Below are positions 8,476 through 52,828 of a stretch of DNA of 64,000 nucleotides, one piece after another. The translations under genes were made by a program, and so were the position numbers. This stretch comes from Jeotgalibacillus aurantiacus (GTDB taxonomy: Bacteria > Bacillota > Bacilli > Bacillales > Jeotgalibacillaceae). Every line of letters begins with the position of its first letter. Position 1 is the stretch's first letter. Below the pieces are notes generated by a model. The model was not told the origin of the DNA and did not search any database. It worked only from the letters and a program-made list of their open reading frames with translations. The DNA is taken from NCBI RefSeq assembly GCF_020595125.1, contig NZ_JACNMS010000007.1, positions 59,104-123,103 of the forward strand, given 5' to 3'.

Positions 8476-8742
8476 GGCGAGAGGCATCCGCAGACTCCTA
8501 TGGCGGAAAGGGAGAGGTGAAACCATTGTGCGAAGCACAAGGGGTTCACCGCCCGGCCTTAGAAAAGCGGAGGCGGGCGTTTAGGGACGTACAAACTGGA
8601 CTGGCCCCGACGGAGATAAAGGAAACACAGCGAACGCAGTGAGCTGATGTTGACTTATCGGACGAGGGGACGGGAAGTTTGCTAGTCACTGCCCGCCGCA
8701 GCTAGACAACGGAAAGCGGAGGATGCTCCCCGGCCCGGTTTT
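8476..8742 (+). repeat. GC-rich fold-back repeat, long form (copy 1)
   Basis: About 267 bp: left arm 8476-8491, conserved core, an extra domain of about 150 bp (roughly 8575-8710), right arm 8721-8736 ending CGGCCCGGTTTT. The long form shares near-identical sequence with 29464-29732. The arms here are only partly complementary (about 12 of 16), so this copy looks decayed. It fills most of the 8309-8793 gap between yunF and sufB. Confidence 0.85.
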
Positions 8743-8751
8743 ATTAAGAAC

Positions 8752-8783
8752 AAAAAACCTGCACTCAAAGAGTACAGGTTTTT
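8752..8783 (-). terminator. Terminator of the suf operon
   Basis: Minus strand stem ACCTGTACTC/GAGTGCAGGT with a 3-nt loop and a T6 tail, 11 bp after the sufB stop. Confidence 0.85.
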
Positions 8784-8793
8784 CAAAATCCGA

Positions 8794-10191
8794 TTAACCA
8801 ATCGAACCTTCCATCTCAAACTTGATCAAACGGTTCATCTCAACCGCATATTCCATCGGAAGCTCCTTCGTGAACGGCTCAATAAAGCCCATTACGATCA
8901 TTTCAGTTGCTTCTTCTTCAGAAATTCCGCGGCTCATCAGATAGAACAGCTGCTCTTCTGATACCTTCGAAACCTTCGCTTCGTGCTCAAGTGAAATATT
9001 ATCGTTCAGAATTTCATTGTATGGAATGGTGTCAGACGTTGACTCATTATCCATAATCAGCGTGTCACACTCGATGTTAGAACGTGCGCCATGCGCTTTA
9101 CGTCCGAAGTGTACGATTCCACGGTACGTTACTTTACCACCCTGTTTAGAGATGGATTTAGACACGATCGTAGATGAAGTGTTCGGTGCAAGGTGATGCA
9201 TTTTCGCACCTGCATCCTGGTGCTGACCTTTACCGGCTAAAGCGATTGATAATGTCATACCACGAGCGCCTTCACCACGAAGGATGACTGCAGGGTATTT
9301 CATTGTCAGCTTCGAACCGATGTTACCGTCAACCCACTCCATCGTTGCGTTTGCATCACAAACGGCACGCTTCGTTACAAGGTTGAATACATTGTTCGCC
9401 CAGTTCTGGATCGTTGTATAGCGGCAGTAAGCATCCTTTTTAATGATGATTTCAACAACGGCACTGTGCAGTGAATTTGTTGTGTATACAGGTGCTGTAC
9501 AACCTTCAACATAGTGTACGCTTGAGCCTTCGTCTGCAATAATCAGCGTACGCTCAAACTGACCCATGTTTTCAGAGTTAATACGGAAGTATGCCTGCAG
9601 CGGCGTGTCCACTTTAACACCTTTTGGTACGTAAATGAACGATCCGCCTGACCATACTGCCGAGTTCAGCGCTGAGAATTTGTTATCGCTTGAAGGGATA
9701 ACGGTTCCCCAGTGCTCTTTGAAGATATCTTCATTTTCTTTAAGAGCAGAATCTGTGTCTTTAAAGACGATTCCCATCTCTTCAAGATCTTCTTTCATGT
9801 TGTGGTAAACAACCTCAGACTCGTACTGTGCAGATACACCAGCAAGGTACTTCTGCTCAGCTTCCGGAATACCAAGCTTGTCAAACGTACGCTTGATTTC
9901 TTCCGGAACCTCGTCCCAGCTGCGCTCACTTTTCTCAGATGGTTTTACGTAATACGTAATCTCATCAAAGTTAAGGCCGCTTAAATCTCCGCCCCACTGA
10001 GGCATTGGCATGCTGTAGAACTGCTCCAGTGCTTTCAGACGGTACTTCAGCATCCACTCCGGCTCTTCTTTCATACGTGAGATTTCTTCAACGATTTCAC
10101 GAGTAAGTCCGCGTTTTGAACGGAAAATCGACACGTCTTTGTCGTGGAAACCATATTTATAATCGCCCACTTCAGGCATTTTCTTTGCCAT
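8794..10191 (-). CDS. sufB: Fe-S cluster assembly scaffold protein SufB
   Basis: 465 residues, the usual length for Firmicute SufB. SufB forms the SufBC2D scaffold on which Fe-S clusters are built. Family stretches seen include GSFIYVPKGV, NWANNVFNLVTKR and the C-terminal YLMSRGISEEEATEMIVMGF. Last gene of sufC-sufD-sufS-sufU-sufB, 33 bp after sufU, with a terminator just downstream. The ATG at 10191 is preceded by AAGGAGGAAT. Confidence 0.97.
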   Translation of the reverse strand: MAKKMPEVGDYKYGFHDKDVSIFRSKRGLTREIVEEISRMKEEPEWMLKYRLKALEQFYSMPMPQWGGDLSGLNFDEITYYVKPSEKSERSWDEVPEEIKRTFDKLGIPEAEQKYLAGVSAQYESEVVYHNMKEDLEEMGIVFKDTDSALKENEDIFKEHWGTVIPSSDNKFSALNSAVWSGGSFIYVPKGVKVDTPLQAYFRINSENMGQFERTLIIADEGSSVHYVEGCTAPVYTTNSLHSAVVEIIIKKDAYCRYTTIQNWANNVFNLVTKRAVCDANATMEWVDGNIGSKLTMKYPAVILRGEGARGMTLSIALAGKGQHQDAGAKMHHLAPNTSSTIVSKSISKQGGKVTYRGIVHFGRKAHGARSNIECDTLIMDNESTSDTIPYNEILNDNISLEHEAKVSKVSEEQLFYLMSRGISEEEATEMIVMGFIEPFTKELPMEYAVEMNRLIKFEMEGSIG

Positions 10192-10224
10192 GGTGATTCC
10201 TCCTTCTGGTTTGGTGGCTCTCAG

Positions 10225-10659
10225 TTATTCAGACTGATGGCCAATCCCTTTCTCCATTGCCTTCCAGGATAACGTTGCACATTTGATACGCGCAGGGAAT
10301 TTTGCCACACCCTGCAATGCTTCGATATCACCAAGATCAATTGAGTCGTCATATTCTTTTCCAAGCATCATATCAGAGAATACTTCTGACAGCTTCATTG
10401 CTTTTTCTACAGGCTGTCCCTTGATCACCTGCGTCATCATCGATGCAGATGCCATGGAAATCGAACAGCCTTCTCCGTCGAACTTCGCGTCCTGTACAAT
10501 GCCGTCCTGTACATCAAGTGTCAAATGAATGCGGTCTCCGCAAGTCGGGTTGTTCATATCAACCGTTACACTGTCGCTGAGCTCACCCTTATTACGCGGA
10601 TTCTTGTAATGATCCATAATGACCTGACGATAAAGCGTATCTAAGTTATTAAAAGACAT
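10225..10659 (-). CDS. sufU: Zinc-dependent sulfurtransferase SufU
   Basis: 144 residues. SufU takes persulfide sulfur from SufS and passes it to the SufBCD scaffold. Zn ligands expected from the family are present: C40 and D42 in NPTCGD, C65 in GEGCSIS, C127 in IKCATLSW. The start ATG at 10659 lies inside the 3' end of sufS (11-bp overlap) behind AAAGGAG, indicating translational coupling. Confidence 0.96.
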   Translation of the reverse strand: MSFNNLDTLYRQVIMDHYKNPRNKGELSDSVTVDMNNPTCGDRIHLTLDVQDGIVQDAKFDGEGCSISMASASMMTQVIKGQPVEKAMKLSEVFSDMMLGKEYDDSIDLGDIEALQGVAKFPARIKCATLSWKAMEKGIGHQSE

Positions 10660-52272: not shown

Positions 52273-52303
52273 AAAAGGCCGACTCTCAAAGAGCCGGCCT
52301 TTT
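52273..52303 (-). terminator. Terminator of the DUF1540 gene
   Basis: AAAAGGCCG-CTCT/AGAG-CGGCCTTTTC hairpin with 3-nt loop, overlapping the stop region; symmetrical, so may also stop plus-strand transcription. Confidence 0.85.
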
Positions 52304-52304
52304 C

Positions 52305-52454
52305 TTATACATGCTCAAACGTCTTGCAATCCGTTTCGTCACTGGAGTCGGCATGGCCTTTGTGGGCACCGACAAAAATCTTTTCCGCCCCACACCTGCT
52401 GCCTTCCCGGTTAAATTTACAGCTATCCACTTCGCACATAATGATTTGCTCCAT
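52305..52454 (-). CDS. DUF1540 small cysteine-rich protein
   Basis: 49 residues, below common gene-calling cut-offs. Begins MEQIIMCEVDSCKFNREGSR and has four spaced cysteines (C7, C12, C21, C43) with the closing TDCKTF, the DUF1540 pattern of small putative metal-binding proteins common in spore formers. GAGGAGG stands 9 nt before the ATG, and a promoter and terminator bracket it. Function unknown. Confidence 0.85.
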   Translation of the reverse strand: MEQIIMCEVDSCKFNREGSRCGAEKIFVGAHKGHADSSDETDCKTFEHV

Positions 52455-52521
52455 TAAAAACGCCTCCTCTTTCAAGATCTTTTGAATCAGAATACGTCTG
52501 GATTAAATCTCTGCTACCTTC

Positions 52522-52550
52522 ATTATAGCCAATGAAAGACAAAGCGTGAA
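52522..52550 (-). promoter_or_regulatory. Promoter of the DUF1540 gene
   Basis: Minus strand TTCACG (52545-52550), 17 bp, TATAAT (52522-52527). The rest of 52551-52700 shows nothing recognisable. Confidence 0.55.
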
Positions 52551-52708
52551 TTATTTTCTGTATTTTCTGACATTAATTCGAACTGGCCAGTTCTCACTTA
52601 TTATTCTCCAGCCCTGACTTAAATATGTTATTTAGTCTTAGGAGCCGTAGAACTTAATGGATCTAATAATTTCAAACAACAAAGTCAGCTGGTAATTAAA
52701 ATTACTGA

Positions 52709-52828
52709 GTGCCGGGTCATTCCGTAGACTCCTACGGCAGAGGAGCGACAGGTGAGACAGCGTAGTGCGTAGCACTAGCTGGCTCACCGCGCGGCCGTGG
52801 AAAGCGAAGGAATTACCCGGCACGGTTT
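52709..52828 (+). repeat. GC-rich fold-back repeat, form B (copy 10)
   Basis: Arms GTGCCGGGTCATTCC (52709-52723) and GGAATTACCCGGCAC (52809-52823), 14 of 15 paired; TACGGC/GCCGTGG lower-stem pair differs from other copies but still pairs. A decayed 3' remnant follows at 52860-52883. Confidence 0.91.

Follow-up and report, generated by a model that had tools for sequence, protein, structure and literature searches.

The 64,000-nucleotide (nt) stretch of the Jeotgalibacillus aurantiacus genome considered here (contig NZ_JACNMS010000007.1, positions 59,104 to 123,103 of the forward strand; hereafter the window, with positions counted from its first letter) carries ten copies of a short interspersed repeat. 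The repeat is predicted to fold into a hairpin whose outer arms vary by locus yet pair within each copy. Each of two related Jeotgalibacillus genomes holds about 150 copies, mostly in intergenic DNA: the genome that contains the window (G000, 3.5 Mb) has at least 150 matches to a covariance model of the repeat, all with E values of 1.3e-9 or better, and the sister genome (G004) has 149. From left to right, an element consists of an A-rich left flank, a 15-nt arm, a conserved core, the complementary arm, GG and a T-rich stretch. The core reads GNAGACTCC ... AGGTGARAC, an apical GCGNAGC hairpin, and GGYTCACC ... GGAAAGCGNAGG; the apex GCGNAGC, a sequence known to form a very stable DNA mini-hairpin, is found in at least 87 of 149 copies. 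Based on the flank composition of 141 copies, an A stands at position -1, and the right side begins with GG and is T-rich afterwards. Compared with the layout of an intrinsic terminator, most of these 141 copies carry GG between the stem and the T-run.

An earlier reading of the window (the original prediction) had named ten copies, and all of its places and strands proved correct. Measured from arm to arm, eight of them are short forms (about 111-116 nt) and two are long (261 nt). The long copies lie at 8475..8735 (+ strand; one inner module, arms with 4 mismatches, two tandem modules at this place in G004) and at 29465..29725 (+; with module, 0 arm mismatches, no module in G004). Three short copies with perfectly matched arms lie at 15120..15232 (+; arms GGGCTCGACTCACCC, replaced by other arms in the G004 element), 27342..27457 (-; arms GTACCGGGGGATTCC, with the same arms plus a module in G004) and 27580..27690 (+; arms GGGCCGTATTCCCCC), the second being an inverted neighbour of the third. 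The copy at 52079..52193 (-) also has 0 mismatches, and its arms are identical in G004. Two copies carry the common arm GTGCCGGGTCATTCC with 1 mismatch each: for that at 19276..19391 (+) neither a copy nor a remnant was found in G004, and for that at 52709..52823 (+) a different element occupies the G004 site. The copy at 45353..45465 (+; 1 mismatch) adjoins the transfer-messenger RNA (tmRNA) gene and likewise has neither a copy nor a remnant that we could find in G004. Finally, the copy at 40917..41031 (+) is a chimera with one arm swapped; its arms have 5 mismatches here and match in G004.

Own-arm pairing with no more than one mismatch over 15 positions, which had been claimed for eight of the ten copies, is what we observed: five have 0 mismatches and three have 1, the exceptions being 8476 (4) and 40917 (5). 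The claim that internal stems covary also held, as the RNAalifold consensus of the eight short copies contains 43 pairs, 18 of them with changes on both sides. Near the last copy, at about 52860-52885, the window has an orphan right end, GATGCCCCTCGGCCCGGTTTT, without a core, and G004 has the same. Tandem direct repeats occur at 14557-15145, 18980-19139, 49686-49845 and 60622-61146, with spacings of about 197, 21, 21 and 175 nt, respectively; the first two lie close to element copies.

Arms were compared across G000 at 174 core-anchored places, of which 149 with at most 5 arm mismatches were kept and 25 with 6-8 were dropped. With a detector that takes the best right arm within 620 nt, and so favours own arms somewhat, own arms differ at 0.65 of 15 positions in these 149 copies, compared with 6.37 for arms of different copies; the covariance model, in which arms are placed by the core, agrees with the detector on pairing. 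Cross-copy pairs match perfectly in 0.8% of cases. Among 116 short forms with any number of mismatches, the arms are perfect in 77 and have a single mismatch in 26. Foreign arms do not pair as well as own arms; equally good pairing of the two was the outcome that the original prediction had named as fatal to its view. An additional outer AAAA/TTTT helix in G000 found no support, as columns -1 to -6 and +3 to +8 pair about as their composition predicts. In G038, a genome of another genus, helices outside the arms seem to pair and covary, for example CTGGTGATT with AATCACCAG.

The 149 copies have 114 distinct left arms, and a constant terminal repeat of the kind found in miniature inverted-repeat transposable elements was accordingly not found among them. 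At the same time, 50 of the 149 share their left arm with another locus. The idea of locus-specific arms thus stands as regards pairing, which goes far beyond chance within copies, but arm sequence is not entirely free: almost every arm begins with G and ends in CC, and the arms cluster, 75 distinct perfect arms having a mean nearest-neighbour distance of 1.76 compared with 2.54 for independently drawn columns. This clustering partly bears out descent from few arm types by drift, which had been named as a contrary outcome. In G000, two consecutive copies (C2:618771 to about 619158) share a single right arm, and their left arms agree at 14 of 15 positions. The distance between cores has a weak relation or none to the distance between arms (rho -0.11, 0.07 and 0.23 in three length classes, of which only 0.23 exceeds permutations), and between copies with cores no more than 4 changes apart, about 4-8 of the 15 arm positions mostly differ.

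We used the sister genome, which is about 91-99% identical to G000 across most long aligned stretches, to follow individual loci. The orthologue search paired 76 of 157 G000 places with sampled G004 copies (111 usable); a recount without spurious, nested and doubled rows kept 72 of the 76 pairs, of which 66 were classified, 5 had no adjoining flank and 1 showed a frame shift. At 25 orthologous rows chosen for having at most 2 changes per arm, changes number 275 of 4908 positions in the flanks, 62 of 1545 in the core and 14 of 750 in the arms. Core changes are clumped: six loci with 0-1 arm changes have cores 5-20 changes apart, and each allele at these loci has a paralogue in one strain or the other that is 1-2 changes away. 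The loci at 29464, 27342 and 8476 differ between the two genomes in whether an inner module of about 150 nt is present, absent or doubled. Together, core switching and module turnover at unchanged arms indicate gene conversion or recombination confined between the arms, and the decoupling of core from arm follows because cores switch while arms stay fixed.

The inner modules are of two kinds, of about 127 and 150 nt, which are gained, lost or doubled between orthologues and are bounded by direct repeats resembling GGAAARCGGAGG. Where neighbouring copies are less than 800 nt apart, their left ends mostly face each other (10 of 14 in G000, 6 of 8 among sampled G004 copies, and 10 of 10 in G047, where 58 of 62 matches were used). 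Such pairs include those at 27342-27690 and 52079-52823 of the window and, elsewhere in G000, C2:802158 with 802476 and C2:24110 with 24391. Two left-to-left pairs have their elements in opposite order in G000 and G004, which is how an inversion of the intervening segment would look.

Arms behave differently from cores at the 66 classified loci. Arms are the same at 42 (40 with both flanks adjoining), where 630 pairs contain 23 one-sided and 2 matched changes; of the remaining loci, 2 differ in 2-3 matched pairs, 16 in at least 4, and 6 have one arm swapped. Because matched differences are nearly all-or-none, arms appear to change as matched blocks, and the rarity of matched relative to one-sided changes, taken with the block counts, indicates that gradual compensation is slow and that most divergence arises in blocks. 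Renewal of arms at resident loci does occur, as these 16 block-changed loci show, and both flanks adjoin at 4 of them. Three of the 16 rows are members of two inverted pairs that traded places, and leftovers of a second element lie in at least one region. For 17 of 18 block rows, arms identical to those of one or both alleles, or one change away, are present on a copy at another place, slightly above expectation (P = 0.064). Transitions account for 12 of 31 single-pair steps between arms.

The mismatches that remain within arms are asymmetric. In G000 copies with 1-2 arm mismatches, G.T occurs 28 times and A.C 4 times (p = 2e-5); adding the G004 mismatches that are not shared with an orthologue gives 38 and 9 (p = 2.5e-5), and two further genomes give 4 and 0, three of the four coming from one arm type. 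A G.T on one strand is an A.C on the other, so a process acting on the duplex cannot give 28:4. In unpaired conserved core columns, which served as a mutation control, C>T was seen at 7 of 407 and G>A at 9 of 816 positions, a weaker bias; the raw control counts differ from 28:4 (Fisher p = 0.004), as does 38:9 from the control per-site ratio of 0.61 (p = 0.004). We regard the arms as a better test than core columns because arm mutations are largely independent between loci. The G.T excess points to the strand ending in GGTTTT as the one under selection when folded. Along with the low rate of change in arms relative to flanks, it upholds the proposal of selection for a folded RNA or single-stranded DNA (ssDNA). 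We infer that RNA is the likelier of the two, since resident copies stay constrained and show no orientation bias relative to tandem neighbours, the GGTTTT strand being sense to them in 12 of 25 copies and antisense in 13.

We therefore favour, with about as much confidence as doubt, a reading in which one hairpin-repeat family has its arms kept paired, probably as RNA, by selection on the folded GGTTTT strand, and its cores kept alike by ectopic gene conversion. A new copy would bring its own arms along. Since the arms of different copies lack homology to each other, most conversion tracts would end on reaching them, leaving cores alike and arms not. One-sided arm mutations would mostly be removed and rarely compensated. 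Occasional replacement of a whole copy would install a matched block of new arm sequence, and occasional loss of one arm to another copy would leave a mismatched chimera, as at 40917.

Several observations weigh against this reading. The G.T bias is strong only in G000: G004 alone, with mismatches common to the orthologue left out, has 10 G.T and 5 A.C (p = 0.30), and a second genus, with partly related arms, has 16 and 8 (p = 0.15). In paired core columns the bias is reversed (21 G>A, 7 C>T), a result partly linked to subfamilies and to poorly aligning long forms. The evidence does not separate RNA from ssDNA, and with sense and antisense orientations so evenly represented, read-through alone cannot make the RNA. 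At 2 per 630 pairs, matched changes seem too infrequent to have generated the diversity of arms, and steps between arms are not rich in transitions, contrary to what wobble intermediates predict.

An alternative is fold-back-templated correction, in which recombination swaps one arm and intrastrand template switching copies the swapped arm onto the other, so that the locus would jump to a new, perfectly matched arm set with fold and site unchanged. The tally at 60 orthologous loci, which omits the six one-arm-swapped loci as presumed intermediates, has the nearly all-or-none form that such jumps would leave (42 with 0-1, 2 with 2-3 and 16 with at least 4 matched changes), and the steps between arms show no bias to wobble intermediates. 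We nevertheless consider it unlikely: so few block loci have both flanks adjoining, some block rows come from swapped inverted pairs, donor-like arms elsewhere fit conversion of the whole element (although only slightly above expectation, P = 0.064), and templating makes no prediction of G.T over A.C.

About equally improbable is a mobile element of single-stranded DNA, like IS200/IS605 or repetitive extragenic palindromic (REP) sequences, in which the fold is needed only for movement. Pairing biased to one strand agrees with it, inspection of the window copies by eye showed no target duplication, and the frequent GCGNAGC apex keeps a role as ssDNA possible. Y1 transposase genes are present in 9 of 12 genus genomes, but these include element-poor ones, and among the matches listed no copy lies near the Y1 genes of G000 (C1:175170 and C1:206422), the nearest being C1:111340 and C1:262125. 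The continued constraint on resident copies and the even orientation in tandem contexts also speak against a fold used only in transit. As a partner for the family, a Y1 transposase or reverse transcriptase found no support: G004 has one Y1 gene and no RVT_1 match alongside its 149 model matches.

The origin of the arms can be approached through strain-specific copies. For eleven detected rows, no counterpart was detected in the other genome: four are deletions there with arm or core remnants, one has a degenerate copy there, one is another element type, and five have no remnant. Four of these five carry GTGCCGGGTCATTCC or GTGCCAGGTCATTCC, and the fifth, at 45353 in the window, has its own arm. 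The two common arms are thus found in 4 of 5 remnant-free copies, compared with 4 of 42 shared same-arm loci in either strain (exact p about 0.002). The flanks of the five copies align uncleanly, so loss in the other strain is possible, and the comparison of occupied with empty sites yielded no clean empty site within the 463 kb compared between G000 and G004. The site in G000 that corresponds to the G004 copy C29:438174 has two common arms side by side and no core between them; this may be a core deletion or a hairpin that preceded insertion.

The spreading mechanism in the original prediction, in which insertion takes a new arm from the target flank and makes an inverted copy of it, would explain why near-identical cores mostly carry arms that look made anew, and the copy at 45353 with its own arm fits it. 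Core switching at fixed arms accounts for the same decoupling, however, and arms that cluster, that one-third of copies (50 of 149) share with another locus, and that are the common ones in four of the five remnant-free copies are not what copying of flanks would give. Common arms in strain-specific copies and the reappearance of arms at unrelated sites make inherited arms likelier than flank-copied ones, and this mechanism is accordingly less probable than either of the preceding two.

Placement was analysed with genes called by a crude open reading frame finder and a strict, home-made terminator finder. Among 43 copies placed in 463 kb of G000, 4 lie between divergent starts and 14 between convergent genes, compared with 40 and 28, respectively, of 187 intergenic stretches of at least 100 bp. 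Of 141 copies, 30 have an intrinsic terminator facing their right end and 2 have one facing their left end (1 and 0 in shuffled sequence); where a right-side terminator was found, 30 of 33 T-runs begin at a distance of 15-32 nt from the arm. Stop codons lie at a median of 58.5 nt from the element on the right (26 genes) and 175 nt on the left (23 genes). In the second genus (G154), terminators stand at the right end of 8 of 31 copies and at the left end of none of the 31. Our best guess is that the element has a role at 3' ends, beside terminators. Insertion into the loops of existing terminator hairpins, with arms derived from the old stems, would account for the GGTTTT after the right arm and for the two arms without a core opposite C29:438174, but it is very improbable, given that this hairpin, which carries the commonest arm of the family, is more readily explained by deletion of a core, parts of the core persist in two other arm hairpins, the same arms recur at unrelated sites, and the real terminator, where found, lies beside the element.

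The suggestion that the element type is widespread was borne out: of the 150 genomes sampled from the order, 71 match the model at a threshold of 1e-6, and these cover 40 of 83 genera. The other genera looked at have similar cores; their arms vary from genome to genome and, in G154, from locus to locus. In G081, G095 and G127, the four copies seen in each genome have nearly uniform arms. Rfam gave no match above the gathering score at the ten sites, and such matches as the 27342/27580 pair had lay far below gathering. With one copy as query, plasmid and phage collections gave no match at 1e-5, and literature searches by motif and topic turned up no published description of the family at the level of search listings. 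The family is large, spread across much of the order and governed by simple placement rules, and it has no Rfam entry. With more than 100 copies per genome, it constitutes a natural experiment on paired strands in which, for the arms, pairing counts more than sequence. Its copies offer a means to tell selection on a folded strand apart from gene conversion and templated arm copying, and the G.T versus A.C asymmetry test can reveal a selected strand without expression data.

Among known repeats, the ERIC and NEMIS elements are imperfect palindromes of roughly similar size, some with internal insertions; they are enterobacterial or neisserial and have fixed terminal sequence, unlike the variable arms described here. 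REP elements with RAYT transposases are described as 20-40 bp long with a GTAG or CGTC tag (PMC3733652). The present family resembles them, so far as that description goes, in being palindromic, intergenic and tagged at one end; it differs in its length of at least 111 nt, its free arms, the absence of a terminal GTAG or CGTC in the flank composition of 141 copies, and the absence of a copy beside a Y1 gene among the matches listed. The bcr1-bcr18 repeats of the Bacillus cereus group are likewise interspersed repeats of the 100-400-nt class in a Bacillales lineage, bcr1 having up to 130 copies; they are stated to be absent outside the B. cereus group and tied to a TTTAT motif (PMC6542083), whereas the present family occurs in 40 of 83 sampled genera and has GGTTTT at one end. 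Bhal-1 of Bacillus halodurans, outlined as a 74-nt stem-loop repeat family with 36 copies, is a stem-loop repeat of a Bacillaceae genome and, compared by description only, may be a relative (PMC2267715). The family described here is a structured interspersed repeat, a known kind of element.

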